Source: Litorilinea aerophila
GTDB lineage: Bacteria; Chloroflexota; Anaerolineae; Caldilineales; Caldilineaceae
Direction of reading: 5' to 3'
Length of the DNA: 64,000 bases
NCBI GenBank assembly: GCA_945897075.1
Contig: CAMDEX010000002.1
Coordinates: 1-64,000 of the forward strand
The translations under genes were made by a program, and so were the position numbers. The notes under the pieces were generated by a model, which searched no databases, was not told the origin of the DNA, and saw only the letters and a list, made by a program, of their open reading frames with translations. Positions within the stretch are counted from its first letter, which is position 1; the number at the start of each line of letters is the position of its first letter. Positions 21,626-56,738 of the stretch are shown here, one piece after another.

Positions 21626-23068
21626 ATGATCACACCGATCCAGTCGCCAGTCGCAAATCCCCAGTCCCCTCTCCCCATCCCGCATTCTGGATTCCACATT
21701 CTCCAGTATTGGGACACCCCTTTCTTTGTCGAGATCCTTCTCCTGGCCCTGACCGCGCCGGTACTCTATTTCCCTGGCCGCTTCCAGGCCCAGGAGATCG
21801 CCTTCGCCATCGGCATCCTGGCGGCGGGCTGGTTCTGGCGGCGGCTGACCATCGGCGTCTGGTTTCGGCGCACCCCGGCCGACTGGCCCATCTTTTTTCT
21901 TTTTTTTGTGATGCTGCCTGTCTCGATCTGGGCCGCGCCTGGAACGCTGCGCGAGCAATATGCCATCCCCCGTACACTGATTCTAATCTGGAACTTCTTT
22001 CTCTTCTGGACGATTGTCAGCCACGCAGGGCGGCGGCGGGAGTTGTTCGATCTTTGCGTGGCAGGTTTTGGGGGAATTGGGGTGGGGATTGCGGTGGCGG
22101 CGCTCTTTGGGACTCAATGGTCAAACAAGTTTCCGGTGATTGGCCCGCTGTTGGACCGCTTGCCCAAGCCGCTGCTTGGGGTATTGGCTGGGGCAGAAGA
22201 CGGACTCAACCCCAACCAGTTGGCAGGGACACTGCTCTATGTGCTGCCTTTACTGGTGGCGTTGGCCGGTTATACATTCCTGCATCACCGCAAAGAATGG
22301 GTCAATTGGCTACCGGCGGGGGTGGCCGCTGCTATCATCGGCACGGTACTCATCCTCAGCCAATCCCGGGGCGCGCTGTTGGGTATGGGGGTGGGAACGG
22401 CGTCTATGTTGTTGGTCAACTGGCGCTGGGGACGCTGGCTGCTGCTGGCAGGGGGTTTGGCTGTTCTGCTCGGGCTGACGGTTGTGCCCCTGGATGCGCT
22501 GTCGAGCAGCCTGGAAACCGCAGAGAACGTGGAAGAGGTGGCCGGCTCCCTCACCCTGCAAGGACGTATCGAAATTTGGAGCCGCGCCCTCTATGGCATC
22601 CAGGATTTCCCTTTCACGGGGATGGGGTTGGGCAGCTTTCGGCGCATCGTCAATCTGCTCTACCCACTCTTCACGATTGCCCCCGACTACGATATCGGCC
22701 ATGCCCATAACTTCTTTTTGCAGATGGCCCTGGACTTTGGCATCCCTGGGCTGCTCGCCCTGCTTGTCCTCTATATGATGGCAGGCGCAACGATAGCAAG
22801 TGTTTGGAAAAGGGGTGACAAAGTCTGGGCCAGCGCGCTGCTCGGTGTCCTGGTGGCCCAGACAGTTTATAGCATGGCCGACGCGGTGGCGATGGGGTCT
22901 AAGGTCAATTTCCTCTTCTGGTGGCTTTTTGCCCTGATCTTTGCCGTGGGTAAGATGCAAAGACAACCATCCACACTCGATTACAGCAGGGCCACACCGT
23001 TGGAAGAAATCTCTCTTTCCAATGGTGCGACCCGGCCATTCCCCACTACACTGCGCCCGACGGGCTGA
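21626..23068 (+). CDS. O-antigen ligase/polymerase (Wzy_C-like) membrane protein
   Basis: Multiple TM segments; GRIEIWSRALYGIQDFPFTGMGLGSFR..., GHAHNFFLQMALDFGIPGLLALLVL. Confidence 0.88.
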   Translation: MITPIQSPVANPQSPLPIPHSGFHILQYWDTPFFVEILLLALTAPVLYFPGRFQAQEIAFAIGILAAGWFWRRLTIGVWFRRTPADWPIFFLFFVMLPVSIWAAPGTLREQYAIPRTLILIWNFFLFWTIVSHAGRRRELFDLCVAGFGGIGVGIAVAALFGTQWSNKFPVIGPLLDRLPKPLLGVLAGAEDGLNPNQLAGTLLYVLPLLVALAGYTFLHHRKEWVNWLPAGVAAAIIGTVLILSQSRGALLGMGVGTASMLLVNWRWGRWLLLAGGLAVLLGLTVVPLDALSSSLETAENVEEVAGSLTLQGRIEIWSRALYGIQDFPFTGMGLGSFRRIVNLLYPLFTIAPDYDIGHAHNFFLQMALDFGIPGLLALLVLYMMAGATIASVWKRGDKVWASALLGVLVAQTVYSMADAVAMGSKVNFLFWWLFALIFAVGKMQRQPSTLDYSRATPLEEISLSNGATRPFPTTLRPTG

Positions 23069-24999
23069 AATTCGGGCACCAACCGGCGAAAGCTCTCCAG
23101 AATGGCCGTCTCGTCTGCTTGCAGCGCCCCCCTGTAGAGGGCAGCCAATTTGGTATCCAAATCGTTGGGCAGCAGCAGCCCGGCGTTGGAGGCCAAAAAT
23201 ATCTTTGCGTGGCGGGTGCGCACATAGCGCTCACCGGGGATAAAGAGTTCCTCGAAGAGTTTCTCGCCCGGCCGCATCCCGCTGTAAACGATCTCCACAT
23301 CCTCCCCCACGCGCAAACCAGACAATTCAATCAGATCACGGGCCAAATCAGCGATACGCACTGCTTGGCCCATATCCAGCACAAAGACTTCGCCCCCACT
23401 GCCCAGGACAGCCGCCTGCAAGACCAATTGCACCGCTTCGGGGATGGTCATAAAGAATCGCTTCATCTCCGGGTGGGTCACAGTCACCGGGCCGCCCGCT
23501 GCAATCTGGCGCTGGAAAGTGAGAACGACGCTGCCCCGACTGCCCAGCACATTGCCAAAACGCACGGCCACATAAGGTTTTCCGCTGACTTTGGCTGCCC
23601 GGTGTACGACCAATTCGGCGCTGCGTTTGCTGACACCCATAATGCTGGTGGGGTTGACTGCCTTGTCCGTGGAGATCATCACAAAGCGTTCGACACCCAC
23701 GGCCAGGGCCGCCGCCACCACATTCTCAGTCCCTTGCACATTGTTGGTCACTGCCTCCACCGGGTTCATCTCCATCAGCGGCACATGTTTGTGGGCAGCG
23801 GTGTGGAATACAACTTGGGGTCGGTATCTCTCGAAGACCTGGCGTATCCTCTCGCCAAAACGAATATCAGCAATGATTGGCGTCAACTGGGGACCGTCTC
23901 GATGTCCATTTTCATCGCCAACACCCGGCTCCTCGCCGCGCAACTCGTTGTGAATATCGAAAATGCTGTTCTCGCCGTGGCCGAGGATAATCAACTCGGC
24001 CGGGTTGGAACGCCAAATCTGTCGGCAGAGTTCGCTGCCGATGGAGCCGCCGCCGCCGGTCACCAAAACCCGTTTGCCGCGCAACAGCCCAGCCACAGCC
24101 TCCACATCGGTCTGCACCGGCTCCCGGCGCAGCAGATCCTCGATGCGTACATCGCGCACCTGCTTCAGGGTCACCCGACCATCCAGCAGTTCGCCCAATC
24201 CGGGCATAATCCGGGCGCGTACACCGGTCTGATCGCAGATGCGCACGATCTCCCGGATGGTGACGCCGGTGGCCGTAGGCATGGCAATGATGACCTGGCT
24301 AACCTTGTATTCCTGGGCTGCCATTGGGATATCCGAGCGCGTCCCCAGCACAGGCACATCGTGGATGCGCACATTCTGCTTGGTAGGGTCATCGTCAATA
24401 AAACCCACTGGCTCCAACCCCAGGCTTGGGTTCTGGCGCATCTCGCGCACGATCATCGCCCCCGCATCCCCCGCGCCCACCACCAGCACCCGGCGCACCT
24501 GTACGCCACGCGCAAAAGGCTGCCAGCGGGTGGCCAGGCGCACGCTGAAGCGGATGCCCCCCACGCCGAGCAAGAGCAAAAGACCGTCAATGAGCACCAC
24601 CGAACGGGGAAAGTTCCAGAGCGGAAAGCCAAACGCGGCCACCAGCGGCAGACGGGAAGCCAGTACTATGCAGAGGAGCAGCAATGTGGAGAGAACGACC
24701 GCCCAGGCGATGCGCCCCAACTCTTCGATGCTGGCATAGCGCCAGAAGCGGCGATAGAGGCCCATACGCTGAAAAACGAGCAGCCGCAGCCCAATCGAAA
24801 GCAACGTATAGAAGACCAGACCGTCGGCATAGCGGGAGAGCATATCCCAACCGGTTGGCTGGACGGTCAGACTATCGGTACGCAGGAGAAAAGCGAGGAA
24901 GGGGGTAATGACAAGCAGTACAAGGTCCAGAATCAAGAAATGGCGGTTGCGCAGGGCAAGCAGACCGGAGATGAAAAAGCGAGGCGATTGGATGGACAC
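22981..24999 (-). CDS. CapD/WbpM/PglF-like nucleotide-sugar 4,6-dehydratase (membrane)
   Basis: N-terminal TM bundle; VTGGGGSIGSELCRQI, STDKAVNPTSIMGVSKR, VRFGNVLGSRGSV. Confidence 0.94.
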   Translation of the reverse strand: MSIQSPRFFISGLLALRNRHFLILDLVLLVITPFLAFLLRTDSLTVQPTGWDMLSRYADGLVFYTLLSIGLRLLVFQRMGLYRRFWRYASIEELGRIAWAVVLSTLLLLCIVLASRLPLVAAFGFPLWNFPRSVVLIDGLLLLLGVGGIRFSVRLATRWQPFARGVQVRRVLVVGAGDAGAMIVREMRQNPSLGLEPVGFIDDDPTKQNVRIHDVPVLGTRSDIPMAAQEYKVSQVIIAMPTATGVTIREIVRICDQTGVRARIMPGLGELLDGRVTLKQVRDVRIEDLLRREPVQTDVEAVAGLLRGKRVLVTGGGGSIGSELCRQIWRSNPAELIILGHGENSIFDIHNELRGEEPGVGDENGHRDGPQLTPIIADIRFGERIRQVFERYRPQVVFHTAAHKHVPLMEMNPVEAVTNNVQGTENVVAAALAVGVERFVMISTDKAVNPTSIMGVSKRSAELVVHRAAKVSGKPYVAVRFGNVLGSRGSVVLTFQRQIAAGGPVTVTHPEMKRFFMTIPEAVQLVLQAAVLGSGGEVFVLDMGQAVRIADLARDLIELSGLRVGEDVEIVYSGMRPGEKLFEELFIPGERYVRTRHAKIFLASNAGLLLPNDLDTKLAALYRGALQADETAILESFRRLVPEFQPVGRSVVGNGRVAPLEREISSNGVALL

Positions 25000-25228
25000 G
25001 CGGGAGGTCCTTCAAAGCGAGAATGGACGCTCGGTTGTGGGAGCAGCCAGAGATGTCAATGTGATGCTCTTCCATTTTACCCAATCAAAGGCTGCTTGCC
25101 CAATCCCAAGCGGGCAAATGAGAACAAATCAGGTGTACAGCGAGTGATTCCACGAAAATTTTGGGGACGCAGATTTTCGCAGATGAACGCTGATTAGGCA
25201 GAGAAGATCCGTCAATGACATTTTGCGC

Positions 25229-26950
25229 TTACAGCGCAAAAACACGAAAGCCCTGGTTGCCAAAACAGTAGATGACAAAGAGGGCAATCCGCGCCTCTGG
25301 ATACTCCTGGCGCAGACCCTGGGCATAGCCCTCGATCTGCTGGCTGTCCTCCACCGGCAGCACAAAGCGCTCGATGTCGATCTTCTCTGTGTGCAGCTTG
25401 CTGTTGGAGAGATACTTAAACTCGATCACCCAGCGCAACCCGGCAAACTTTTCGTGATACTTACCGACAAACTCCAGGTCGCTCTTGCCCTGCGCGTACG
25501 AGCGTTCCACATTCCAGGTGAACCAGGGCGAAAGATGGCGGCTACACAGTTCAAAGAAGGTTGTCCGGTAAAAATTTTCGTTGACCTGTTGAAAGAGCGC
25601 TTCCGGCAACTGCGAAATATAGTGCTGCCAGTAGCCAGCAAAGAGGCGCTCCAGATTGGGTTCGTTGACAAACGCTTGCATCAGCTCGGCGTAGCGGGTG
25701 GAGACATCAATCTGATGCAGTTCGTTGAAGTATTGCACAAAAATCTGGCGCAAATTGAGATTGGGCAGCCGCATAAAAAAACGATCTTCTTTGGTCAACA
25801 TCCCGAGATAGAAAAACGAGATAGGATAGAAGCCCTTTGCGAAGAATTGGCTGATGTCAAACTTGGTGACGAGAAAGTCACGATCGTAGGCAATCCGGTT
25901 TTCACGGGTCAATTGACCGACAAACTCCTCTGTATCACCGGGGCGGGCGCTGGTGATGCGTCGCACCCACGAGAGATCGGTCTTCAGATTGAGGTCGGTC
26001 AGAGCTTCGGGTATCTCCTTGTACTGTACAAAATAGCGCAGGAAGTAGATCAGAATGGTCGAATTGTAGAGCGCTTCGCCTTCTGGATCGACAAAGTGAT
26101 AGCCGTTGTAGTTGCTCTTGATCAGCGCATTGACTTCGTTGCGCGTGGCCGGGTCCAGTTCGTGTTCCCGGTAGATATCATCAAGCAGGTGGTCAACCTC
26201 GGCCTGGGTGAAGCCCAACATTGATTCAAAGCCTGGCTCCAACGTCAAAAAGGTGGCAATGTTGAAAGCAGATGCCAACTCGTCAATCGTGATGGGCAGT
26301 ACACCGGTGATAAAAAGATTGGCAATCGCTCCCCGCTCACGCCCCGCTTTGAGTGTCTTGAAAAAGGTCTTGAGAAAGCCATCAGCAGCCACCAGTTCCT
26401 GGTAGTGCAGATCACGATTGCCTGTGATTAATTGGTTGGCGAAGTTGTCATATTCATCAATGATGACATAGACCGGCGGCAATTGGTTGCTGGCAACGTA
26501 ATTCAACAGATGGTTGAGATTGTCTGAAACAGGGGCATCGAATAGAATTTCGGGCATCTCATCGAGCAAAGGCGCATATTCGATGCGCAGCAAGCTGAGC
26601 GTGCTATTGCAATGGCGGCGAAAACTGCTTTCGATCTGCGCCACGTTCCCGCCGACATCAATGACCGAAAAATTGAAAAAGAGCAGAATGTACTGATTGT
26701 GGCTCGGTGTTGGGTGCTGACCGATCCAGGTTTGACCAAAAAGTTCGTCAAAGCTGCTGGCGTAGTTCAAATCGTAGTAATAACGCAGGGTTGAACAGAA
26801 GAGCGACTTGCCAATCCGTCGTGGACGTAGGAAGACCGGGTTTTTGATTGCTTCCAGTTTGGCAATATATTCTGTCTTATCGACAAAGTAGCCGTTCTCT
26901 CGTACAATTGCCGCGTAGTTCGATTCGCCGTAGATCACCCGTCGCTTCAT
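25229..26950 (-). CDS. AAA-ATPase-like + PD-(D/E)XK nuclease-like protein (PF09820/DUF1703 type), copy 1
   Basis: IYGESNYAAIVRENGYFVDKT, FLRPRRIGKSLFCSTLRYYYD, VYVIIDEYDNFAN; C-terminal LEFVGKYHEKFAGLRWVIEFKY. Confidence 0.85.
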   Translation of the reverse strand: MKRRVIYGESNYAAIVRENGYFVDKTEYIAKLEAIKNPVFLRPRRIGKSLFCSTLRYYYDLNYASSFDELFGQTWIGQHPTPSHNQYILLFFNFSVIDVGGNVAQIESSFRRHCNSTLSLLRIEYAPLLDEMPEILFDAPVSDNLNHLLNYVASNQLPPVYVIIDEYDNFANQLITGNRDLHYQELVAADGFLKTFFKTLKAGRERGAIANLFITGVLPITIDELASAFNIATFLTLEPGFESMLGFTQAEVDHLLDDIYREHELDPATRNEVNALIKSNYNGYHFVDPEGEALYNSTILIYFLRYFVQYKEIPEALTDLNLKTDLSWVRRITSARPGDTEEFVGQLTRENRIAYDRDFLVTKFDISQFFAKGFYPISFFYLGMLTKEDRFFMRLPNLNLRQIFVQYFNELHQIDVSTRYAELMQAFVNEPNLERLFAGYWQHYISQLPEALFQQVNENFYRTTFFELCSRHLSPWFTWNVERSYAQGKSDLEFVGKYHEKFAGLRWVIEFKYLSNSKLHTEKIDIERFVLPVEDSQQIEGYAQGLRQEYPEARIALFVIYCFGNQGFRVFAL

Positions 26951-27042
26951 CGCCAAAGTCCTCTTCCGTCATGCGCCGTAGCTGCCACCCGATTGGTCTG
27001 TATAATAGCACAACGGTTCCTGTTCGTCACGGTGTAGATACA

Positions 27043-28764
27043 TTACAGCGCAAAAACACGAAAGCCCTGGTTGCCAAAACAGTAGATGACAAAGAGGGCA
27101 ACCCGCGCCTCTGGATACTCCTGGCGCAGACCCTGGGCATAGCCCTCGATCTGCTCGCTATCCTCCACCGGCAGCACAAAGCGCTCGATGTTGATCTTCT
27201 CTGTGTGCAGCTTGCTGTTGGAGATGTACTTGAACTCGATCACCCAGCGCAACCCGGCAAACTTTTCGTGATACTTGCCGACAAATTCCAAATCGCTTTT
27301 GCCCTGCGGGTACGAACGTTCCACATTCCAGGTGAACCAGCGCGACAGGTAACGGCTGCACAATTCAAAGAAGGTCGTCCGGTAGAAGTTTTCATTCACC
27401 TGTTGGAAGATCGCTTCCGGCAGTTGCGAAATATAGTGTGCCCAGTAACCAGCGAACAAGCACTCCAGATTGGGGTTGTTGACAAATGTCTGCATCAACT
27501 CGGCATAGCGGGTGGAGACATCAATCTGATGCAGTTCGTTAAAGTATTCAACAAAGATCTGGCGCAAGTTCAGGTTGGGCAAACGCAGGTTGAAATCATC
27601 CTCTTTGGTCAGCATACCCAGGTAGAAAAAGGAGATGGGAAAAAAACTGGGGTTGAAAAATTGCGAGACATCAAACTTTTCAACCAGAAGAACCTCGTCA
27701 TAGCGGATATGATTGTAGAAGGTGAGCTGCTCGACAAAGGCTGCGGTCAATTGTGGGTTCGAGGCTGTCAGACGGCGTACCCACGCCAGATCCACCTTCA
27801 AATTGAGATCGATCAAACGCTTGGGAAACTCTCTGTACTGTACAAAGTAGCGCAGGAAGTAGATCAGAATGGTCGAATTGTAGAGCGCCTCGCCTTCTGG
27901 ATCGACAAAGTGATAGCCGTTGTAGTTGCTCTTGATCAGCGCATTGACTTCGTTGCGCGTGGCCGGGTCCAGTTCGTGTTCCCGGTAGATATCATCGAGC
28001 AGGTGGTCAACCTCGGCTTGGGTGAAGCCCAACATTGACTCAAAGCCTGGCTCCAACGTCAAAAAGGTGGCAATGTTGAAGGCCGAGGCCAACTCGTCAA
28101 TGGTGATGGGCAGTACGCCGGTGATAAAGAGGTTGGCAATCGCTCCCCGCTCACGCCCCGCTTTCAGTGTCTTGAAAAAGGTCTTGAGAAAGCCATCGGC
28201 AGCCACCAGTTCCTGATAGTGCAGATCACGGTTGCCCGTAATCAACTGATTGGCAAAGTTGTCATACTCATCAATAATCACATAGACGGGCGGCAAGCGG
28301 TTGCTCTGGATGTATGTCAAGAGTTTTTCCAGATTGTCAGAAACTGCGTCTGCCATAGCCAGCGCTGGCATTTCGCCCAACAGACTGGGATAGACCGTGC
28401 GCAGTGCGTCTAGGATGGTGTTGCAGTGGTTTTTGAAGCTATGTTCAATCTCCCCCACCGTCCTGCCCACATGTACCACCGAAAAGTTGAAAAAGAGCAG
28501 GATGTACTGGTTGTGGCTAGGCGTCGGATGCTGGCCGATCCAGGTCTGGCCGAAGAGTTCGTCAAAATGGGCGGCCTCGTTCAGATCGTAGTAGTAGCGC
28601 AGGAGCGAACAGAAGAGCGACTTGCCAATGCGCCGCGGACGCAGAAAGACCGGGTTTTCAATTGCTTCCAGTTTGGCAATGTAGGCGGTCTTGTCGACAA
28701 AATAACCCTCTTTGCGCACAATGGCCGCATAGTTCGATTCACCGTAGATCACCCGTCGCTTCAT
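27043..28764 (-). CDS. AAA-ATPase-like + PD-(D/E)XK nuclease-like protein, copy 2
   Basis: Same length (1722 bp) and architecture as copy 1; shared promoter-proximal sequence. Confidence 0.85.
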   Translation of the reverse strand: MKRRVIYGESNYAAIVRKEGYFVDKTAYIAKLEAIENPVFLRPRRIGKSLFCSLLRYYYDLNEAAHFDELFGQTWIGQHPTPSHNQYILLFFNFSVVHVGRTVGEIEHSFKNHCNTILDALRTVYPSLLGEMPALAMADAVSDNLEKLLTYIQSNRLPPVYVIIDEYDNFANQLITGNRDLHYQELVAADGFLKTFFKTLKAGRERGAIANLFITGVLPITIDELASAFNIATFLTLEPGFESMLGFTQAEVDHLLDDIYREHELDPATRNEVNALIKSNYNGYHFVDPEGEALYNSTILIYFLRYFVQYREFPKRLIDLNLKVDLAWVRRLTASNPQLTAAFVEQLTFYNHIRYDEVLLVEKFDVSQFFNPSFFPISFFYLGMLTKEDDFNLRLPNLNLRQIFVEYFNELHQIDVSTRYAELMQTFVNNPNLECLFAGYWAHYISQLPEAIFQQVNENFYRTTFFELCSRYLSRWFTWNVERSYPQGKSDLEFVGKYHEKFAGLRWVIEFKYISNSKLHTEKINIERFVLPVEDSEQIEGYAQGLRQEYPEARVALFVIYCFGNQGFRVFAL

Positions 28765-28944
28765 CGCCAAAGCCCTCTCTGTCATGCGCCGTAGCCGCGC
28801 CCAATTGGTCTGTATGATAGCACAACGGTTCCTGTTCGTCATACGACGCCTTGCCAGGTCGCAGCTACACCGCAAACAAAACGCCCCCGGCCACGGAGGA
28901 TGGCCAGGGGCGATAACCACTTGACTTCGCCTATGTCAATTTGA

Positions 28945-30749: not shown

Positions 30750-31870
<1,121 letters not shown>

Positions 31871-31874
<4 letters not shown>

Positions 31875-34089: not shown

Positions 34090-34533
34090 CTATTCGACGG
34101 TGCCTTGAAACTCGTCCATGGTTGCCTGTCCTGGTTGGCTGATGCCCTCGCGTGCGAAAATCTTCCAGACAGTCATCCCGATGATCTTAAGGTCCAACCA
34201 GACCGAGCAGTGATCCACATACCAGACATCCAGGGCGAACTTCTCTTCCCAGGAGATGGCATTGCGCCCGTTGACCTGCGCCCAGCCGGTGATACCGGGG
34301 CGCAGTGCGTGGCGTCGCGTCTGCTCCGGCGTGTAGAGCGGCAGGTAGCGCATGAGCAGCGGACGTGGCCCCACCAGCCCTTCGACTGCGCTCAGGACAG
34401 GCCTCATCTCCCCGCGCAGCACGTTCCAGAGTTCTGGCAGTTCATCCAGGCTGCTGCTGCGCAGGATCAGGGCAAGAATGGTGAGCAAGAGGTCGAAGAG
34501 CCGCTTTCCGATGCGACAATAGACGGTGGGCGT
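34090..34533 (-). pseudogene. PglC-like initiating sugar transferase with internal deletion and short repeat insertion
   Basis: [15 protein letters not shown] joins directly to [19 protein letters not shown]; insertion [10 protein letters not shown] before VGPRPLL; C-terminus [31 protein letters not shown] intact. Confidence 0.85.
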
Positions 34534-35192: not shown

Positions 35193-36128
35193 TTACTGCC
35201 CAGAAAACAAATCAGAAAGAAGCTTCCAGTCTTCGACCGATAACTGCCAGTCCAGTGCCCCAACATTCTCTTCAATGTGGAGCGGTTCGATTATCCCAAC
35301 CAATGCGGCAGAAACAGTAGGATTGTCCAGAATCCAGCGAATAGCAGTCTGAGAAGGTGACTTTCCATATTTGGCTCCAATTCCTCGCAACTGGTCGATC
35401 AATAGTAAGTTGCGCGCCAACGTATCTTCCTGGAAATTACCGTCTCGTCCCCGTTTGTCGGTGGCATCAAACTGCTCGACTGAACGGTACGCACCAGACA
35501 GAAGTCCCTTGGCCAGGACTCCATAAACCAACAAGCCTAGTCCAAGTTCGTCGCACAGAGCGAGATAGCCATTCTCAATATCACGCGAAAGCATGCTGTA
35601 CGGCATCTGAGCCGATATGACAAGGCCAGATGAGGCAGCTTCTCGGAGCAACGGCTCAGGGAAATTTGAGCAGCCAATGTAGCGCACTTTGCCTGCTTGT
35701 TGACACTTCGCCAAAGCGGCTAGAGTTTCCGCAAGGGGGGTAAGAGGATCAGGCCAATGGACCTGATAGAGCGGAATACAATCTATACGGAGGCGGCGCA
35801 AGCTAGCCTCAAGTGCATCAACGATATATAGTGCGCTGCTGTTTCGGCCAGTGTTGCCGTGTGAATCCCAAGACACGCCAAACTTGGTAGCAATGACAAC
35901 ATCATGCCGTTTTGCGCCCAGGGCTTTACTTAGGATTGTCTCAGAGTGACCAAAACCGTAGACATCGGCGGTATCAAAAAAGTTGATACCCAACTCCAGA
36001 CTACGTTGTATGGAAGCAATAGACGTAGAATCGTTGATCGGCCCCCAACCGTGCCCTCCAATAGCCCAACAACCAAAGCAAAGACGTGAAACGCGCAGAT
36101 CGGTTCGATCCAACTGTCGATATTCCAT
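35193..36128 (-). CDS. Aldo/keto reductase
   Basis: LRVSRLCFGCWAIGGHGWG, NFFDTADVYGFGHSETILSKAL, ALAKCQQAGKVRYIGCSNF. Confidence 0.92.
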   Translation of the reverse strand: MEYRQLDRTDLRVSRLCFGCWAIGGHGWGPINDSTSIASIQRSLELGINFFDTADVYGFGHSETILSKALGAKRHDVVIATKFGVSWDSHGNTGRNSSALYIVDALEASLRRLRIDCIPLYQVHWPDPLTPLAETLAALAKCQQAGKVRYIGCSNFPEPLLREAASSGLVISAQMPYSMLSRDIENGYLALCDELGLGLLVYGVLAKGLLSGAYRSVEQFDATDKRGRDGNFQEDTLARNLLLIDQLRGIGAKYGKSPSQTAIRWILDNPTVSAALVGIIEPLHIEENVGALDWQLSVEDWKLLSDLFSGQ

Positions 36129-36197
36129 TTTTCCCAAGCAACTTGAAAAGTCTACTTCGTGGTTGGCAAATTCTTGGTCCTACACAACATGCTCAAC

Positions 36198-36950
36198 CTA
36201 GGCCGGAGGAGCGTCCCGATTGGTGACAATTTCTGTGGCCCCAGGCGGAGGGTATGGCACGAGCTTATCCGTACGTCTGGAAACTCGTCGGAGTTCTGGT
36301 TCTGCTCCTAGCTTTACCAGTATTTTTTGGACGCTGGCTAGGGCGCGCTCGCGTGAGCCAATCGCGACGGCGGTCAGATAGATGAGATTGATATCCAAAG
36401 TCAGAGAATGATTGTCCACGTATAACAAACCAAGCCGACTCTTCCAGGGTCGAATCAATTGGTTATAGTCCAAGTCCGGGTCTTGGCTATCCTTCAGAAT
36501 TTCGTTCTCGTCCGAGAAAACTATGGACGCAATATCTGTAATTCCCGGACGCATACTAAGCAGCCGCTTCTCTTCTCTAGTGTAGATATCCGTTTCGCGC
36601 TTGACATTGGGCCGCGGCCCCACCAAACTCATGTCACCGCGCAGCACATTCCAGAGTTGCGATAATTCATCAAGCTTATAGGAACGTATGAACTGACCTA
36701 CACGTGTTATACGTGGATCTTTTGTTGACGTGGAATCCACTCCTGATTTGTCAGCGTTGATTACCATCGAACGCAATTTGACCATACGAAACAGTTTTTC
36801 ATTTTGTCCTACCCGTGTTGCAATGTAAAACGGTGAATGGAAATCCTGCAACCAGATAGCAACAATGGTGGGAATGAGAACCACGCTGCCGACAAGCAAT
36901 CCGAAAAATGACAAGACAACGTCCAAAAGCCTCTTCAACATACTCTTCAC
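36198..36950 (-). CDS. Undecaprenyl-phosphate sugar phosphotransferase (initiating transferase)
   Basis: KRLLDVVLSFFGLLVGSV, FRMVKLRSMV, YKLDELSQLWNVLRGDMSLVGPRP. Confidence 0.93.
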   Translation of the reverse strand: MKSMLKRLLDVVLSFFGLLVGSVVLIPTIVAIWLQDFHSPFYIATRVGQNEKLFRMVKLRSMVINADKSGVDSTSTKDPRITRVGQFIRSYKLDELSQLWNVLRGDMSLVGPRPNVKRETDIYTREEKRLLSMRPGITDIASIVFSDENEILKDSQDPDLDYNQLIRPWKSRLGLLYVDNHSLTLDINLIYLTAVAIGSRERALASVQKILVKLGAEPELRRVSRRTDKLVPYPPPGATEIVTNRDAPPA

Positions 36951-37933
36951 TCTTTCATCAGGCTGGAGACAACAGCGACGATATCACTAGGTTTCAGATA
37001 GTAAAGATCTTCCAGCACCTTGCTAGTGGGGGACGGCGCATCAGGCAATGTAAGTCGTCTCGGAGACGATTTCCACACGGAGGGGGCAATGCGTTCAGCA
37101 ACGCCGGCGATTACCTCACCCGCCAAGCCACAAGTTTTCCAGCCACCATCCACAGCGCAAAGACGACCAGTTTTTTGGACGGAATCGATCACTGGTGCAT
37201 AGTGAAGCGGATTGATCACGCGCAGATCGACGACTTCGCAGTCGATGCCTTCGGCAGCTAGTTGCTCTGCAGCTTGCAGGCATAACTGAGTAGAGAAGCT
37301 ACAGGCAACCAGAGTACAGTCGCTGCCCTGGCGCAACACCTGCGGACATTGAATGCTTAGGTCGATCTCCACAATCGGCGTAAACTCTTGTTCAATATCA
37401 TACAGCCAGCGATCATCAATGTAGAGAACAGGGTCGTCACATAGAATACTGGCGATAAGGAGATCCCGGGCATCTGCCGGTGTGGCAGGCATGACGACGC
37501 GTAAACCCGGGATATGCGCAAACCAGGAGTGAAGTGCCTGAGAATGTTGAGCGCCCTGTTCACCGCCCCGGTTGATAATGCCTCGAATCGTGACAGCTGG
37601 ATGAGCCTGACCGCCAAACATGTACGACCATTTGGCCGCCTGAGAGACGATCTGATCGATGGCCAGAATCATGAAATCCATGCGCGGATGTACAACCACA
37701 GGCCGATATCCACACAATGAGGCTCCTACTGCTGCTCCGGTTACAGCAACCTCTGAAACTGGACTATCAATGACCCGGTGTTTTCCAAATTCTAAGTCCA
37801 AGTCCTTCATGGATGCGCCTACATACCACGGACTCCACAAACCCTGTCCAAACACAAAGACCTTGGGATAATTCCTCATTGTGTACTGAAATGCAGCAAG
37901 AATGCCCTGCGCATATGTAAAAGAAGTCGCCAT
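36947..37933 (-). CDS. TPP-dependent dehydrogenase E1 beta-like / transketolase C-terminal-like subunit
   Basis: VIDSPVSEVAVTGAAVGASLCGYRPVV, DDPVLYIDDRWLYD, DCEVVDLRVINPL. Confidence 0.9.
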   Translation of the reverse strand: MATSFTYAQGILAAFQYTMRNYPKVFVFGQGLWSPWYVGASMKDLDLEFGKHRVIDSPVSEVAVTGAAVGASLCGYRPVVVHPRMDFMILAIDQIVSQAAKWSYMFGGQAHPAVTIRGIINRGGEQGAQHSQALHSWFAHIPGLRVVMPATPADARDLLIASILCDDPVLYIDDRWLYDIEQEFTPIVEIDLSIQCPQVLRQGSDCTLVACSFSTQLCLQAAEQLAAEGIDCEVVDLRVINPLHYAPVIDSVQKTGRLCAVDGGWKTCGLAGEVIAGVAERIAPSVWKSSPRRLTLPDAPSPTSKVLEDLYYLKPSDIVAVVSSLMKE

Positions 37934-37950
37934 CTATAATCCTCAAGTGA

Positions 37951-38997
37951 TCATGCGTAGACTAGATTGAGCAAAGCTGAAGTGTCTGGATACGGTGCTT
38001 GTTCCGCGCACCCCCACGCATCATTAATTGCTACCTGAACTTCAGCATCCAGGCCAATAAACTCTTCCGTCGATAGCCAACCAACAGCCTCTAATGCCTG
38101 TGCCAAACGACGTACAGGGTCTCTCTGTTTCCACAGGCCCAAGTCATCACTACGTCGAACACCCACATCGAGGTCTTCGCGAGGTCCTACATGACCACGC
38201 CAGCGATAGGTGACTGCTTCAATGAATGATGGTCCCTCAGCGTCTCTGGCGCGCTGAACAGCAATTTGTGCTGTCTTCGAGACAATTTGTATATCATTAC
38301 CCTCTATTACATGTGTAGGCATTCCGTGGGATCTGGCAAATCGAGCCACAGAATTAGCCGGCTGGCGAAGTGAAATATGCATATGGCTGGCAAAGAAGTT
38401 ATTTTCACAGACAAATAGGATCGGCAGTCTCATGGTTGCGGCTAAATTCAGAGATTCGTGCAATGCACCCTCTTCCATAGCACCATCGCCGAAATAGCTG
38501 ACGGCAATGTCGCCCTCCCCATCCATCTGAGCGGCTAAGGCTGCGCCGACAGCAATAGGCACCGACGCGGCCACAATGGGCACCGATCCAAGAAACCCAT
38601 GCGCAGAATCGTATAGATGCATAGAGCCACCCATACCCTTCGACGCCCCAGTTGCACGCCCTAAGACCTCAGCGAACAGTGCGAACACCGATCCCCCAGC
38701 AGCCAAAAAGTGACTATGGGAGCGATGGGCACCGAATATCCGATCACTGGGACGAAGCTGGCTGGAGATCCCGACAGCTATCGCTTCCTGCCCAATACCC
38801 AAATGAGCAGGACAATGCACCTTCCCTGCCGTGATCATGTCGCCGATACGTTCTTCTGCTTTACGGATAACAAGCATTGCGCGTAGCTGATCAATCAATT
38901 GTTGGGGAGTCGCATCAACAACATTGATTGGCTGGCAATAGTTGGTCGCGCTATCCAACTGATCGGGAAGTTCCAATAAACTTTGTTCAACATACAT
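37951..38997 (-). CDS. TPP-dependent dehydrogenase E1 alpha-like subunit
   Basis: HLGIGQEAIAVGI, GSMHLYD, YFGDGAMEEGALHESLNLAATMRLPILFVCENN. Confidence 0.93.
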   Translation of the reverse strand: MYVEQSLLELPDQLDSATNYCQPINVVDATPQQLIDQLRAMLVIRKAEERIGDMITAGKVHCPAHLGIGQEAIAVGISSQLRPSDRIFGAHRSHSHFLAAGGSVFALFAEVLGRATGASKGMGGSMHLYDSAHGFLGSVPIVAASVPIAVGAALAAQMDGEGDIAVSYFGDGAMEEGALHESLNLAATMRLPILFVCENNFFASHMHISLRQPANSVARFARSHGMPTHVIEGNDIQIVSKTAQIAVQRARDAEGPSFIEAVTYRWRGHVGPREDLDVGVRRSDDLGLWKQRDPVRRLAQALEAVGWLSTEEFIGLDAEVQVAINDAWGCAEQAPYPDTSALLNLVYA

Positions 38998-39001
38998 GGA
39001 A

Positions 39002-40123
39002 TCAATCCTTTGAATAGAAGCGGCGGATTTTTTCGCAGACGTACTCCACGTCTTGATCAGACAAGGATGTATTCATCGGAAGCATGAGACACCGGGTAAA
39101 CATCTTTTCAGTATAGGGCAGGCTTGCTGACAGACCGAGGACGTCAATCTGATGCACAGCCTTGCCGCCCCACTGTATGAGTGTCCCAATTCCCTGCTCT
39201 CGTAGATCAGCTTTCAATTCGTCTCGACATTCAGCTTCGATTTCATAATTCTGGAAAACATCAAAGTGATCCGGTTCACTGCCGGGAGCAGGAGGTAACA
39301 GGAGTGCTTGGAGATCAGCAAGGTGTTCTTGATAGATTGACGCGATCTCTCGGCGGCGGACCATTTCCTGATCGTAACGCTGCAGTTTGAAATTCAGGAT
39401 TGCTGCCTGCAAATTGTCCAAGCGAGAGTTAAGACCCCAACCCACGACGTCCCCCTTACTGTTACGCCCATGATCTCGCAAGGCGTAAAGGTCCTCATAT
39501 AGCGTGTCGTCATTCGTTAGAATCGCGCCACCGTCACCGAAGCATCCAAGCACTTTGGCCGGATAGAAACTGATCGTGCCGGCCAGTCCAAACGTACCAG
39601 CGCATTTGCCCTTATATTGCGCTCCCAACCCCTGTGCGGCGTCCTCAATGATCAACAGGTTGTACTCATCGGCAATCGCCTGCAACGAATCCATATCACA
39701 GGCACGCCCGTTGAGTTGTGTTGGCATGATCGCTTTTGTGCGGGGCGTGATCGCTGCCTTTACGCTTTCCGGGTCGATCAGGTGATCAGTCCGGCAGTCT
39801 ACGGGCACCGGTGTGGCACCAACAAAGTGAACAGACGCCGCCGTCGCCACATAGGTATGGGAGGCAAAGATCACTTCGTCGCCCGATCCAATACCGGCTA
39901 CGCGCAAGGCTAGAATCAGTGCGTCCGTACCATTGGCAACGCCGAGAGCGTGTTTCGCCCCTGTGAATTGAGCAAGATTTTGCTCGAATTCCTCCAGGTC
40001 TCTCTGCAGGATGTAGGCGCCTCTACGTCCGACGTCTTGGATCACTGACATGAGTTCTTCTTCGTGTGCAACGAATACGTGCGGATAATTAAAGAAAGGT
40101 ACTGAACGACTACCCATAATCAC
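39002..40123 (-). CDS. DegT/DnrJ/EryC1 aminotransferase
   Basis: IIEDAAQGLGAQYKGKCAGTFGLAGTISFYPAKVLGCFGDGGAI. Confidence 0.93.
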   Translation of the reverse strand: MIMGSRSVPFFNYPHVFVAHEEELMSVIQDVGRRGAYILQRDLEEFEQNLAQFTGAKHALGVANGTDALILALRVAGIGSGDEVIFASHTYVATAASVHFVGATPVPVDCRTDHLIDPESVKAAITPRTKAIMPTQLNGRACDMDSLQAIADEYNLLIIEDAAQGLGAQYKGKCAGTFGLAGTISFYPAKVLGCFGDGGAILTNDDTLYEDLYALRDHGRNSKGDVVGWGLNSRLDNLQAAILNFKLQRYDQEMVRRREIASIYQEHLADLQALLLPPAPGSEPDHFDVFQNYEIEAECRDELKADLREQGIGTLIQWGGKAVHQIDVLGLSASLPYTEKMFTRCLMLPMNTSLSDQDVEYVCEKIRRFYSKD

Positions 40124-40926
40124 ATCGCTCCTTTTGAATCAAACTCTGATCTACGGTTTTTTCTTGCAACACAATAGATTACTTTATGTTCTTTGTCCGG
40201 TTTGTTAGGTGACAGTAGCACAGGCTCTGTATATTCACTCATGCCCTCGTCAATTTCGGCCGGCATAGGTATGAGGTTTCCAAACATGACCTTTTTCAGT
40301 AGTTTTTTGCCAGCCATGCTGCGGGGCATTAGGTTCAAATCGGTGGCGAGTTTTTTGAGCGGCCGGAGTAGCCTTTGGCGCAACGAAACAGCGTATACAG
40401 ACAAGTAGCCATACAACTCAACGGAAAAACCATGATTCAGGAATCGCTCGTTGAGTTCGGTTACACCATAATATTGATGGCTAAACGGGCTAGGATTGAA
40501 ATCGAACAAGTCCTTGTTGGCAGTTGCGATGAGAACACAGCCGTCGTCTCTCAGCACGCGCCGACATTCATTGATAAAACGGTCTACGTCAGGTATGTAA
40601 TAGATTGCCTCAAACAGAATAATGACGTCGGCAGAGCGATCCTCGAATGGCATATCCTGCGCGTCGAAGTTTCTCAAATCAATTCGATCGCCATAGTGTT
40701 GTTGGGCAATCTGTAGAACGCTTTGGGTATAGTCTCCCGCGCGAATGCTCCTTGCTCGTTTAGCCATATATCCTAGACCCGGTCCTGTGCCGCAGGCAGC
40801 TTCAATGACATCTTTGTCGCCACAGTAAGCTCCTGCCCAGTAGTAACGATGGCACAGACGTTCGATCTGCTCTTGGGAAATCTCGTCACCGGCTAGTTCT
40901 GTTACAGTGGAATAGTCTACGGTCAT
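40120..40926 (-). CDS. SAM-dependent class I methyltransferase
   Basis: VIEAACGTGPGLGYMAKRARSIRAGDYTQSVL, FEDRSADVIILFEAIYYIPD. Confidence 0.88.
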   Translation of the reverse strand: MTVDYSTVTELAGDEISQEQIERLCHRYYWAGAYCGDKDVIEAACGTGPGLGYMAKRARSIRAGDYTQSVLQIAQQHYGDRIDLRNFDAQDMPFEDRSADVIILFEAIYYIPDVDRFINECRRVLRDDGCVLIATANKDLFDFNPSPFSHQYYGVTELNERFLNHGFSVELYGYLSVYAVSLRQRLLRPLKKLATDLNLMPRSMAGKKLLKKVMFGNLIPMPAEIDEGMSEYTEPVLLSPNKPDKEHKVIYCVARKNRRSEFDSKGAM

Positions 40927-42221
40927 TATGCCTTCCTTTGCAGGCGTGACTTCCCGGAATTTGTCGTAATAGCGTTGGCCGCGACCTGCTCCAGATGCGC
41001 CACCAACCTCGGGTAAATGATATCAGCGCTGAAACGCTCCTCAAAAAGCTTGCGGGCCCGCCGGCCTATTGCAATTCGTTCCGCTGGATTGGCAGCCAAC
41101 CAGCGAATTCTCTCCACCAGCGAGTCTACATCGCCAGCCTGGTACTGAAGACCGATCTGCTCGTTACGGATCAGGTCTTCCAGTTCGCCGCGCAGGGATG
41201 AAAGCAAAGGCAATCCGAACGACATATACTCAAAAGACTTGTTGGGCATAGATCCATTGACTGAACGACCTTCAGCATAAGGTGCCAAACCGACAGAGGC
41301 CAAACTGAGTACCGCCTGGATCGAAGTTTGATCGAACCATCCCGTCAAGACAACATTTCGCAGCCCCTGCGCAAGACTACGTACCTGCGCACCATTGCTA
41401 CCATCACCTACCAGCACGAACTGAACATCTTCTTGTCCGGCATCATCCAGCACTCGAGCTGCATCTAGGACTGTTTCGAAGTCGAAGATAGAATTCAAGC
41501 TTCCAACAAATGCTACGATCAGGTTTTCGGTCTTCAAGTTGTGATATGAGACAATTTCGGTCTGACGTGCGATGATTTGATCGCTTGGAGAGCAAGACGG
41601 GTATCCCATTGGAAAAACACCATCTGCTTTGGTTTGTCGTCGTCCTGCGTTGTATAATCCCCAACTCAAGAATGAATCAGAGATGGCGGTCACTCCTGTA
41701 ACGGCACTCAGCCCTCGCCGCGCTCGTCGGAATTCAACTTGAAGCAATATGCGTAAGAAACTCCGCCATCTCTCAGGCACCAAAGTTAAATAATGATCCG
41801 GCCATAGGTCACGAACATCGATTATTACCGGTGTCTCCATATTCTTACCGTAAGCTGCCGCCTGCTCCACAAGTTCCACAGTAGGCAAGCTGCCAAATAT
41901 CACGTCGGGTTTTAATTGACTGACTGCCTCCGCTGCAAACTGTCTAGCCAATATACGCTGATGCAGAAAACGTTTGGGGGATTTATTATGACCATAGCCT
42001 GGCCCATGCAGCAACCAGACCTTCAAACCTGGTTGAATCTCCACAACAGTAGGGTGATCAAAACGATGACGTTTCTGGGCGTGGTCAAAAGTAGATGCCC
42101 ACCACAGCACTTCGTGTCCGCGGGCAACCAATGCTCTGGAGAGCATTGCTGCGCGCCAGTCCCGTGCGCCCAAATCTATGCCAGGGAGAGGTTCTCCATC
42201 CTGAATGACCCATGCCAGCAT
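40926..42221 (-). CDS. Glycosyltransferase, GT4/WbuB-like
   Basis: C-terminal GT-B: VAFVGSLNSIFDFETVLDAARVL, FVLVGDG, MPNKSFEYMSFGLPLLSS. Confidence 0.88.
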   Translation of the reverse strand: MLAWVIQDGEPLPGIDLGARDWRAAMLSRALVARGHEVLWWASTFDHAQKRHRFDHPTVVEIQPGLKVWLLHGPGYGHNKSPKRFLHQRILARQFAAEAVSQLKPDVIFGSLPTVELVEQAAAYGKNMETPVIIDVRDLWPDHYLTLVPERWRSFLRILLQVEFRRARRGLSAVTGVTAISDSFLSWGLYNAGRRQTKADGVFPMGYPSCSPSDQIIARQTEIVSYHNLKTENLIVAFVGSLNSIFDFETVLDAARVLDDAGQEDVQFVLVGDGSNGAQVRSLAQGLRNVVLTGWFDQTSIQAVLSLASVGLAPYAEGRSVNGSMPNKSFEYMSFGLPLLSSLRGELEDLIRNEQIGLQYQAGDVDSLVERIRWLAANPAERIAIGRRARKLFEERFSADIIYPRLVAHLEQVAANAITTNSGKSRLQRKA

Positions 42222-42238: not shown

Positions 42239-43474
42239 TCACTTGCCTGCGTCAACAGTTGCTCTTCTACTCTCTGGAGACGTCATTGGCGTGAAAGAGT
42301 GATCGAGCAACTGTTGATAAAGGTTCAAAAGTTTCTGTGATTCTGATTCCCAATTGTACTTCTCCTCTATTGCTGCTCTTCCTCTGCGTCCCATTTCCTC
42401 AGCTTCGGCCGGATGTGTAATCACGTATTCGATGGCTGCCGCAATATCTTTTGCACTGAGTGGATCGACCAGCAGACCGCATTGATGTCGTTCGATCAAA
42501 TCGCGCCAGAGCGGAAAATTCGATGCAATGACAGGAATACCTGCACTCATATATTCGAACAGTTTATTGGGCTGCGCCTCCATATGGTTGGGCGCTGGAT
42601 GAAAGAGGACAAGACCTGCCTGAACCGTACCTAAAAGTGATGCTAACTGTGCGCGATCCAGAAAACCAACTTCGTCGACACACTTCCAGCCGGACGACTC
42701 TATGATCTGGGATCGCAACTCCAGCGGTGAAAATTGACCAGCCAGTTGCAGCCGCACGCCTAGATCGTCGGCCAGGAAGTCCACGGCGTCTACCATCTGT
42801 TGGATGCCGCGCACCGCAGCGATTACGCCCACATAAGCAACCGAACGTAAACGCTCCCCCCAGGGTCTCTCTTTAGGGGCGACCAGTTCGTCGAGCAAAG
42901 GATAGTTGTTGATATTGTGTGTATGAGTTTGAAATAGCTGCAGGCGACTTGTAATGGCCGGGGTTGCGGTTACCAGCGCCGAAAACTGCTTCACCGCATT
43001 CACTTCAAGCTTTTCCAACAACCAACTCATGGGTTTTCTGATCTGAATCGGCAGATAGTTGCGTCCTGGTGAAAGCAGCGCGCGCGGCGCATCTTCGTGA
43101 ACATCGTAGATGACTCGATGGCCCTGAAAATGTAACAGCAATCCTACGGGGATCAATTCTGGGTCATGAAAATGATATAAGTCACCCTTAAGCCCTAATG
43201 CCTTTTGATACACTCGGTTAACAGAAAGTGTCATTCTTGGAAGACGTCGTTGCAAGCCAGGTATCGCCTCAATGCGAACACCATCGCTTATCTCATTCCT
43301 GATATGCGGAGCAACCAGCGATACCTCATAACCTGCCCGCGCCAATGAAATACACTCTTTACGAAAGATACGGGTGTCGAATGGAGAGTGAGCCGAAGTG
43401 AGATGCACGACATGTTGCTTGCTTGATGAATGAGTCAATGTCGTATTACACCCTTTGTAAATGCAGTCCAGCAA
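42239..43474 (-). CDS. Glycosyltransferase, GT4 family
   Basis: LYHFHDPELIPVGLLL, RSVAYVGVIAAVRGIQQMVDAV, QPNKLFEYMSAGIPVIAS. Confidence 0.9.
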   Translation of the reverse strand: MLDCIYKGCNTTLTHSSSKQHVVHLTSAHSPFDTRIFRKECISLARAGYEVSLVAPHIRNEISDGVRIEAIPGLQRRLPRMTLSVNRVYQKALGLKGDLYHFHDPELIPVGLLLHFQGHRVIYDVHEDAPRALLSPGRNYLPIQIRKPMSWLLEKLEVNAVKQFSALVTATPAITSRLQLFQTHTHNINNYPLLDELVAPKERPWGERLRSVAYVGVIAAVRGIQQMVDAVDFLADDLGVRLQLAGQFSPLELRSQIIESSGWKCVDEVGFLDRAQLASLLGTVQAGLVLFHPAPNHMEAQPNKLFEYMSAGIPVIASNFPLWRDLIERHQCGLLVDPLSAKDIAAAIEYVITHPAEAEEMGRRGRAAIEEKYNWESESQKLLNLYQQLLDHSFTPMTSPESRRATVDAGK

Positions 43475-43572: not shown

Positions 43573-44754
43573 CTAACTACGTTTCAACGAGTGGTAAACC
43601 TGCATCAGCAACCGGCTTTTGCCTAGAATGCGTTTGTAAGAGGGGTAATCCCAAAAACTCTTCGGTGGCATTTGCATGATTTGTCCGAATTCCTCGGCTG
43701 AAATACCGAGTTTTTTGATTACGTACTGTTTGTCCTGCTCTTGCAGTTCTACAGGATAGTCTACTTTATCCATTTCTTCCAGGGCTGTCTCTCTGGACAT
43801 CTGACCTGACCATATGAGTGATGCCAAATGGAGTCTCTTCTTGTTAAAACCAAATTTGGTAGGTAGAATAAACCCCTGGTAGAACCTGGTGTATATTGAT
43901 TCATAGTGCTTGCCACCGTAGTAGCGCCATCCAAGTTCATTCTCTAACACGTCAAGCGCCTCGACTTTATCGTAATCCAAGTAATCCAAAAGCGGAATCC
44001 AACGTATGCCACGAATGATCGAATAGTAGATAAAACTGAGAATTCCGTAATGGACAAAGGACTTGATAGGCCGAACTCCGAATTGGGCATGTACGCTCTC
44101 GATGTACCGCCAGTCTCCATGTCCCTGCGACCAAGCTGCAACACCCCCGCCTTCAGTCGCCATGTTGTGACCGTTGATGATGTAGCGCACATGTTCTTCA
44201 GCAGCTACCTTATACAGGACTGCCAGAATCGCATGATCCGTCGGGATCTCCGAATCGGGTGTTGATGATTTGAGAAAGGCAAGCTGCAGATCTTTGAACT
44301 CGTCCCAGTCTAACACATACGTATAAAGGTCGATATCCAGATTCTTCAACACTTTCTCGATGTTACTGACAGCCAACTCCGAATCCCAGCCGTTATCCAA
44401 ATGAACTGCCAGGGGCCGGAGTCCCAATTTCTTCACAAGATAAGCCGTATACGTGCTGTCAACGCCACCACTCACGCCGATGATGCAATCATAGCGCTTG
44501 TTCTTACCGGCCTGTTTGATAACCCGCACTATTTCATCAAGGGCACCCGACTGCCGTTTCTTGACGTATGATTCGACGCTGAGCATCTGCTCGTAACGAT
44601 GGCAGTGGCTGCAAACACCCCTTTCGTCAAAGACAATATCAGGATCACTTGTATCCATGATGCATCTGCGGCAGATACGATATGATTTACCCTGCGTTGT
44701 CAATGCAGAGATGTTGACAGTTACATCAATTGCCATGTTTTTCTCACTCATCAA
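43573..44754 (-). CDS. N-acetyl sugar amidotransferase (WbpG/PseA-like)
   Basis: YRICRRCIMDTSDPDIVFDERGVCSHC; PP-loop ATPase IIGVSGGVDSTYTAYLVKKLGLRPLAVHLDNGWDSE. Confidence 0.92.
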   Translation of the reverse strand: MMSEKNMAIDVTVNISALTTQGKSYRICRRCIMDTSDPDIVFDERGVCSHCHRYEQMLSVESYVKKRQSGALDEIVRVIKQAGKNKRYDCIIGVSGGVDSTYTAYLVKKLGLRPLAVHLDNGWDSELAVSNIEKVLKNLDIDLYTYVLDWDEFKDLQLAFLKSSTPDSEIPTDHAILAVLYKVAAEEHVRYIINGHNMATEGGGVAAWSQGHGDWRYIESVHAQFGVRPIKSFVHYGILSFIYYSIIRGIRWIPLLDYLDYDKVEALDVLENELGWRYYGGKHYESIYTRFYQGFILPTKFGFNKKRLHLASLIWSGQMSRETALEEMDKVDYPVELQEQDKQYVIKKLGISAEEFGQIMQMPPKSFWDYPSYKRILGKSRLLMQVYHSLKRS

Positions 44755-45508
44755 ATATCTGGTGCAGTTCGCTGCTCGACGGATAGCTGATCAACACCGC
44801 ACGATGGGGTCCTTGAAAGACAAACATACTACCAGCAGCAGCGGCTGCCGCCCCGGCATCCTTGACTGCTGAACGCAGGTCCTGGATTGTCCGTGCGCCG
44901 CCACATGCGACAACAGGCACGTTGACGGCTTGGGTGACGCGCTTGATCAACTCTAGATCATAGCCTTGCATCCTGCCATCCCGGTCGATGGAGTTTAGAA
45001 GAATTTCGCCAGCACCAAGTTTTTCAAGAGTTTTGGCGTGTTCGACCGGGTCCATGCCTGCAGATTTACGTCCGCTGTGCGTCCTCACTTCATACCGACC
45101 CCAAAGAGTTTGCTTGACATCAATTGAGGCAACGATGCTTGAACTGCCGGCAAAATCGGCTGCCTGCGTCACAAAGTCTGGGTTCTCGACAGCATAGGAG
45201 TTGATAACGATCTTTTCAACGCCCAATCCAAGAATTGTCTTGACATCTTCCAAACTGCGAACGCCACCGCCATACCCCAGCGGCATGAATGCTTCGCTTG
45301 CCACTTCTTCAATCAACTTGAAGCAAGGCTTGCGGTTTTCAACTGTCGCTGTGATATCAAGCAACATCACTTCATCGACTTCTTTATCATTAAAAAGCCT
45401 GACAATATTGATTGGATCGCCCAAGTATTTGGGATCCTTGAACCGTACAGTCTTTACCAAGCCTTGATTGCGCAATAACAAGCAGGGGATCGCACGTGGT
45501 ATCAGCAT
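44744..45508 (-). CDS. HisF-like cyclase/ammonia partner of the sugar amidotransferase
   Basis: MLIPRAIPCLLLRNQGLVKTVRFKDPKYLGDPINIVRLFNDKEVDEVMLLDI. Confidence 0.92.
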   Translation of the reverse strand: MLIPRAIPCLLLRNQGLVKTVRFKDPKYLGDPINIVRLFNDKEVDEVMLLDITATVENRKPCFKLIEEVASEAFMPLGYGGGVRSLEDVKTILGLGVEKIVINSYAVENPDFVTQAADFAGSSSIVASIDVKQTLWGRYEVRTHSGRKSAGMDPVEHAKTLEKLGAGEILLNSIDRDGRMQGYDLELIKRVTQAVNVPVVACGGARTIQDLRSAVKDAGAAAAAAGSMFVFQGPHRAVLISYPSSSELHQIFDE

Positions 45509-46132
45509 TCAATGCCATTCCCAATTGACGAAATTCTGTAACAGGCGCATACCAAATTTGTGGCTTTTTTCCGGATGAAACTGAACGCCGACAATATTCT
45601 CGCAAGCAACCACTGAGGTGAACAGTCCACCGTATTCCGTTTCACCCAACACTGCGCTTTCAGGTATGCACCTCATATGATACGAATGAACAAAATAGAA
45701 GCGGTTGTTTTCTTCTAAACCTGAGAGCAATGGATGGGAGGAGCGTGTATGCACAGTGTTCCATCCCATGTGGGGCACTTTCAAGCTGTCGTGCGTTCCA
45801 TCAAACCGAAACCTTATCGTCTCTGCATCCAGCCAGCCTAGACCACTTAATTGGCCTTCTTCGCTGCATTGGGAAAGGAGTTGCATGCCAAGACAAATAC
45901 CTAATATCGGAATCTTGCACTCTAGAACTTGTTGATTGAGAACATCAACAAGCCCCATGTGATTCAAGTTTCTCATGCCATTATCAAATGCTCCGACACC
46001 GGGCAGGATTAACTTTTCTGCCTGTGCAATTACATCTGTATCTGAAGAAAGAATCGCAGCAATGCCAACTCTCTTCAACATATTGACAATTGAACCGAGG
46101 TTCCCCATACCATAATCAACTATAACCAGCAT
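45509..46132 (-). CDS. HisH-like glutamine amidotransferase
   Basis: MLVIVDYGMGNLGSIVNMLKRVG, ILGICLGMQLL, VQFHPEKSH. Confidence 0.93.
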   Translation of the reverse strand: MLVIVDYGMGNLGSIVNMLKRVGIAAILSSDTDVIAQAEKLILPGVGAFDNGMRNLNHMGLVDVLNQQVLECKIPILGICLGMQLLSQCSEEGQLSGLGWLDAETIRFRFDGTHDSLKVPHMGWNTVHTRSSHPLLSGLEENNRFYFVHSYHMRCIPESAVLGETEYGGLFTSVVACENIVGVQFHPEKSHKFGMRLLQNFVNWEWH

Positions 46133-46247
46133 TAGCACCCTCCTCAGTCCAGGTACAAATATCGATGCCGAACAACTTTTCATCGGAAGGACTGCAGTTT
46201 ACAATACGTATACTCAGTTTAAAATGTCCTGGAACATTCACATCTAA

Positions 46248-54811: not shown

Positions 54812-55941
<1,130 letters not shown>

Positions 55942-55945
<4 letters not shown>

Positions 55946-56726: not shown

Positions 56727-56738
56727 CTCACCACATCC

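Follow-up and report, generated by a model that had tools for sequence, protein, structure and literature searches.

Two adjacent genes for E1-like, ThDP-dependent enzyme subunits, embedded in a sugar operon of Litorilinea aerophila, most likely serve a new purpose, the attachment of a two-carbon branch to a cell-surface sugar, as judged by analogy with branching enzymes of actinomycete antibiotic pathways. In our main reading, to which we give a probability of a little under 60%, the pair would act as a stand-alone, E2-independent carboligase, the acetyl branch would be aminated or reduced as well as methylated, and the sugar would prime a surface glycan. This reading builds on gene content and operon layout, on intact catalytic residues, on the placement of the pair in an E2-less clade and on a recurrent cassette featuring a dedicated DegT clade and an alternation of DegT and aldo-keto reductase (AKR) genes.

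The E1 pair and its operon

The genes needed for the argument are located as follows in the window, i.e., the whole stretch of 64,000 nucleotides that was analysed:

22950..25194, minus: reading-frame region of a CapD/PglF-type (PF02719) dehydratase, 676 aa; Pfam match at 23191-24069
35193..36137, minus: AKR, placed with those from other E1 cassettes; shares 55% identity with the AKR of locus L091
36198..36950, minus: priming sugar-1-phosphate transferase, Bac_transf family; best PDB match PglC
36947..37933, minus: E1beta-like ThDP enzyme subunit, 328 aa; Pfam Transket_pyr and Transketolase_C
37951..38997, minus: E1alpha-like ThDP enzyme subunit, 348 aa; Pfam E1_dh (2.7e-61)
39002..40123, minus: DegT aminotransferase of the dedicated E1-linked clade; WbpE/DesV/QdtB-like in PDB comparison
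40120..40926, minus: SAM methyltransferase of the MTw family, recurring beside the E1-linked DegT
40926..42221, minus: GT4 glycosyltransferase of a family recurring next to the cassette
42239..43474, minus: second GT4 glycosyltransferase

The first-pass annotation had described an E1alpha/E1beta pair flanked by a priming transferase, a DegT aminotransferase, a methyltransferase and an AKR, and this layout was borne out in full, since both reading frames lie on the minus strand where it had put them and Pfam confirmed their domains as well as the neighbours. The E1 pair, DegT, the methyltransferase, a GT4 enzyme, the PglC-like transferase and the AKR form a tight minus-strand run in which most junctions are overlaps or gaps of a few bp: the priming transferase and E1beta overlap by 4 bp, as do DegT and the methyltransferase, and the gaps measure 17 bp between E1beta and E1alpha and 4 bp between E1alpha and DegT. 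The CapD/PglF-type dehydratase is the likely source of a 4-keto sugar. A second PglC-like priming transferase gene (34090-34488, minus) appears broken, as its N-terminal segment is joined straight to the C-terminal half; about 60 residues are lacking, and a repeat-like insert, RPVLSAVEG, is present. The transferase of the E1 operon may be the sole intact PglC-like priming transferase here.

Apart from this operon, the window carries two other amino-sugar pathways with DegTs of their own, which had gone unmentioned in the first-pass annotation. A WbpG/HisH/HisF-type acetamidino set and a WbpB/D/E plus WecB set (43573-46183 and 53511-58389, minus) resemble the diacetamido-uronic acid pathway of Pseudomonas aeruginosa O5, and a further UGD-DegT-WbpD-WbpB set is found on the same contig at about 67.7-72.3 kb. 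Moreover, two very similar large proteins of 575 and 625 aa are encoded in tandem at 25229-28920 (minus), with long identical stretches and long antisense reading frames, and a TumE-type toxin gene (PF20126; 31871-32263, minus) is inserted among the sugar genes.

Both subunits have the fold of PDH E1, which also provides their nearest solved structures. In E1alpha, the ThDP motif (GDG...NN) is intact and the loop YRWRGHVGP replaces the PDH-type YRxxGHxxxD. E1beta carries the signature V-H82-P-R84-M-D-F, graded as carboligase-type, and has retained E61 and H130, which align with Glu59 and His128 of human E1beta (PDH E59/H128). In the same alignment, H82 and R84 lie 5 and 3 residues ahead of the position matching Phe85. 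E61 and H130 are invariant in both the E2-less and the PDH-side sets; H82 is present in 77 of the 78 E2-less rows and R84 in all 78, and neither occurs in any of the 34 PDH-side rows. The GP of the E1alpha loop is found in 64 of 78 E2-less rows and is not among the six commonest residue pairs on the PDH side. From these residues, the enzyme looks catalytically competent but altered near the cofactor. H82/R84 of E1beta together with a GHVGP-type loop of E1alpha could offer a simple signature separating sugar-branching candidates from true dehydrogenase E1s; automatic annotation tends to label such candidates alpha-ketoacid or pyruvate dehydrogenase.

Separation from dehydrogenase E1 subunits

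In view of their fold and closest solved structures, the subunits could be an ordinary PDH, BCKDH or acetoin E1 with its E2 and E3 encoded elsewhere. The genome, a draft of 6.38 Mb, contains six E1alpha and six E2 genes, and four of the latter adjoin four other E1 pairs. E2 genes with no adjacent E1 are found at the end of contig C306 and on C51, where E2 is followed by the only E3 match of the genome; the E2-E3 pair on C51 is one example of a possible partner. The E2 on C306, however, passes the SucB cut-off and is of SucB type. All six E2 genes are placed outside the window's contig, and neither E2 nor E3 was found near the pair; the earlier statement that the pair comes without E2/E3 thus stands for the locus and, regarding E2, for the whole contig, but has to be qualified by the E2-E3 pair on C51.

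Phylogeny argues strongly against such a dehydrogenase. In a tree of 112 concatenated E1alpha/E1beta pairs, the pairs with an adjacent E2 form one group on a branch with a support of 100, which also holds three pairs with no adjacent E2 within the short stretch read, and the window's pair sits in a 38-row clade of glycan-type pairs (support 99). In a careful 28-row tree, the separation from dehydrogenase pairs received 100/100, and constraining the window's pair to group with them cost 227 log-likelihood units (p-AU 2.5e-51). Identity as a PDH, BCKDH or acetoin E1 is rejected by the tree and the AU test; the pair did not cluster with PDH and is distinct from these enzymes, as the first-pass annotation had anticipated.

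Compared with the E1 of pyruvate, branched-chain and acetoin dehydrogenases, the pair is alike in fold, ThDP motif, E61 and H130, but it falls into a separate clade, misses motifs near the active site and has no E2 partner. Consistently, both subunits score far below the NCBIfam PDH E1 cut-offs (E1beta 241.6 vs. 321 bits, E1alpha 283.6 vs. 393.85 bits), and the glycan context is consistent across loci. No E2 lies close to any E1-cassette locus of the genome scan, whereas the majority of reference E1 pairs, taken from relatives and plasmids, have one in their vicinity. We therefore consider an ordinary dehydrogenase E1 hardly credible.

Distribution of the cassette and alternation of DegT and AKR

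Among 60 near-relative genomes, only PDH-like background E1 of at most 44% identity was detected, and a sample of the phylum contained a few pairs at 46-52%, including locus L046 with the priming transferase, E1alpha, E1beta, DegT and methyltransferase in the same order. Because close kin are absent from the near relatives, the pair was most likely acquired horizontally. Across about 85,000 species genomes, 80 loci were retrieved; E1beta identity was highest (65-67%) in Alphaproteobacteria and a Legionellaceae bacterium, followed by Prochlorococcus and a few others at 54-60%; samples of three further groups added more loci. The recurrent cassette comprises GT4, the priming transferase, E1alpha, E1beta, DegT or AKR, plus an MTw or c9 methyltransferase or a class I aminotransferase, plus a CapD/PglF-type dehydratase, with neighbour labels derived from BLAST to cluster representatives rather than from full annotation, and many of the relatives are metagenome-assembled genomes with short contigs. 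With the same families of priming transferase, DegT, methyltransferase and CapD, the cassette is present in surface-glycan loci across many phyla of bacteria and in some archaea. The earlier placement of the pair in a glycan operon is hence extended by related E2-less pairs recurring in such loci, a wide distribution that the first-pass annotation had not noted. Searches of the open-licence literature did not turn up any account of E1 pairs in loci for surface glycans.

A scan of viral contigs gave no match, and phage matches were distant, the one inspected (L189) being an annotated acetoin operon with E2. Plasmid tblastn returned mostly pairs annotated as alpha-ketoacid dehydrogenase, with the exception of a Solidesulfovibrio glycan plasmid and two Streptomyces plasmids. 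A cluster on a Streptomyces griseofuscus plasmid (L044:13983-16029) combines regulators, ketosynthases and ACPs with an E1 pair that shares the HxR and GP motifs, but has no obvious sugar genes. Within the window's E1 clade, one member from Chloroflexota (L047/L098) lies beside MATE-type transporters, has no glycan neighbours and may have a different role. Another E2-less E1 lineage, mainly labelled Deltaproteobacteria (L097, L101, L105, L107, L115, L116, L120 and L129), is accompanied by two radical SAM genes, one of them B12-binding, and GT2. Regarding taxonomic labels, L083 is labelled Acidimicrobiia, and its sample includes a contig identical to L119, which is labelled Acidobacteria.

With a support of 100, 37 rows make up an E1-linked DegT clade, 36 of them adjacent to E1; the remaining DegTs of these loci, among them the window's copies at 30750-31874 and 54815-55945, fall outside it. 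The E1-linked AKRs, including that of the window, also group together, with weak support and few rows. Of the 54 loci that could be classified, 38 carry DegT but not AKR, nine AKR but not DegT, and six neither, and the window departs from this alternation as the single locus with both (Fisher p 8e-6 for exclusion, kinship uncorrected). The AKR label changes at least seven times on supported branches of the tree. In seven independent pairs of loci, DegT and AKR differed in opposite directions in 5.3-5.8 and the same way in 0.1, the sign test giving borderline median p values of 0.06 and 0.03 in the two directions after loci had been added. This alternation, absent from the first-pass annotation, points to DegT and AKR as alternative treatments of one ketone intermediate, borderline as the test is.

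Proposed pathway and known systems

The proposed pathway would start from UDP-2-acetamido-2,6-dideoxy-hexos-4-ulose (UDP-4-keto-6-deoxy-HexNAc), provided by the CapD/PglF-type dehydratase of the locus. The E1 pair would decarboxylate pyruvate, the donor that we infer, and transfer a two-carbon acetyl unit to the ketone of the activated sugar, most likely at C4, yielding a tertiary alcohol with a 4-C-acetyl branch. The E1-linked DegT could then aminate the ketone of this branch, or the AKR could reduce it, the adjacent methyltransferase would methylate the branch, and the PglC-like transferase would load the sugar phosphate on undecaprenyl phosphate, whereby the branched sugar would start the surface glycan unit. 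We propose 4-C-acetylation followed by amination or reduction and methylation because the parts of the cassette match the chemistry reported for alphaKADH2 enzymes, which use pyruvate to attach an acetyl branch to C3 or C4 of deoxy-keto sugars, the branch ketone being subsequently reduced, methylated, oxidised or transaminated (PMC12247030). The branched sugar suggested by the first-pass annotation is upheld in part, as far as a glycan operon, a pair not of PDH type and neighbours matching known fates of an acetyl branch are concerned (PMC12247030), and the chemistry itself would follow by analogy.

Some features of the window count against the main reading. About half of the classified relatives have no CapD within 4.5 kb; in the window it is 12 kb off and might be dedicated to the bacillosamine genes, and the co-occurrence of DegT and AKR fits the alternation poorly. 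In addition, the nearest PDB relatives of DegT, namely WbpE, DesV and QdtB, act on a C3 ketone of the ring and not on a side chain, and the AKR, judged by its nearest solved relatives, apparently falls outside the Pau7 subclass. To our knowledge, no enzyme of the window's E1 clade has a known product.

These affinities of DegT would suit a C2 carboligase acting on a sugar together with a WbpE/QdtB-like ring C3 aminotransferase and an AKR reducing a ring ketone, resulting in a 3-amino sugar whose C4 acetyl branch is left as it is or modified in another way, or in a C3 branch; alphaKADH2 branching is indeed known at both positions (PMC12247030). The repeated swap of DegT and AKR beside the same E1 lineage, however, is most easily explained by both enzymes acting on the ketone made by E1, and a 3,4-ketoisomerase is not among the families identified in the cassette by general labelling. 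Ring amination consequently appears unlikely to us. Still another option could be an E2-independent ThDP enzyme making a small acyloin or other non-sugar block, e.g., an acyl or amino-ketone substituent, that is later put on the glycan, as the Streptomyces plasmid cluster lacking obvious sugar genes and the clade member lacking glycan neighbours might suggest. Against this, the link to a 4,6-dehydratase, a priming transferase and a dedicated DegT is recurrent, and the cassette contains no recurrent ligase or acyl carrier, which makes such a block quite improbable.

Returning to branching of the sugar itself, we tentatively envisage, as possible rather than probable, a widespread and so far undescribed surface-glycan pathway to 4-C-(1-aminoethyl) and 4-C-(1-hydroxyethyl) 2-acetamido-2,6-dideoxyhexoses as priming sugars, in which an E2-free E1 carboligase is combined with DegT and AKR as interchangeable finishing modules. 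The window, having both modules, may make both sugar forms or one that is doubly modified. If true, E1-type chemistry would extend to the surface glycans of numerous phyla, with Prochlorococcus as one example, and one would expect a class of amino or hydroxy sugars with C2 branches that has so far not been sought; ketone-accepting carboligases are also useful in biocatalysis.

Among known systems, bacillosamine biosynthesis (PglF-PglE-PglD-PglC) and the WbpB/D/E/I and WbpG/HisH/HisF pathways share the logic of 4,6-dehydratase, DegT and priming transferase. Both sets, bacillosamine on the one hand and WbpB/D/E/I plus WbpG/HisH/HisF on the other, are also present in the window, but these pathways have no ThDP enzyme, and the DegTs serving them here are separate paralogues. 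YerE-like enzymes of yersiniose and erwiniose formation carry out ThDP-dependent C-branching of 4-keto sugars in surface polysaccharide (PMC12247030), which is what the cassette is predicted to do. In contrast to the window's two subunits (E1_dh and Transket_pyr/Transketolase_C), they are single polypeptides of the decarboxylase superfamily, YerE of Yersinia being a flavoprotein, and a YerE-like single-chain decarboxylase was ruled out on these grounds.

The closest resemblance is to the alphaKADH2 enzymes of actinomycete antibiotic pathways, namely AviB1/AviB2, Pau11/Pau12 (= Plm8/Plm9), the kosinostatin and aldgamycin enzymes and KbDH of kibdelomycin, a likeness drawn from architecture and gene context, with the named enzymes compared by description. 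Of these, Plm8/Plm9 is flexible towards the sugar (PMC4802897), and the acetyl branch of paulomycose is reduced by Pau7, an AKR (PMC4753412). Shared features are separate E1alpha and E1beta subunits in a two-subunit ThDP architecture, intact catalytic residues, a locus with no E2/E3, separation from PDH-type E1, and linkage to deoxysugar genes and to a branch-tailoring reductase, transaminase and methyltransferase. Unlike them, the window's cassette lies in surface-glycan operons with a priming transferase and a CapD dehydratase rather than in antibiotic clusters. A 2025 review locates alphaKADH2 branching mainly in antimicrobial specialised natural products and assigns surface-sugar branching to YerE-like enzymes (PMC12247030); the system described here is best called putative E1-type sugar branching shifted from antibiotic clusters into a widespread surface-glycan cassette.
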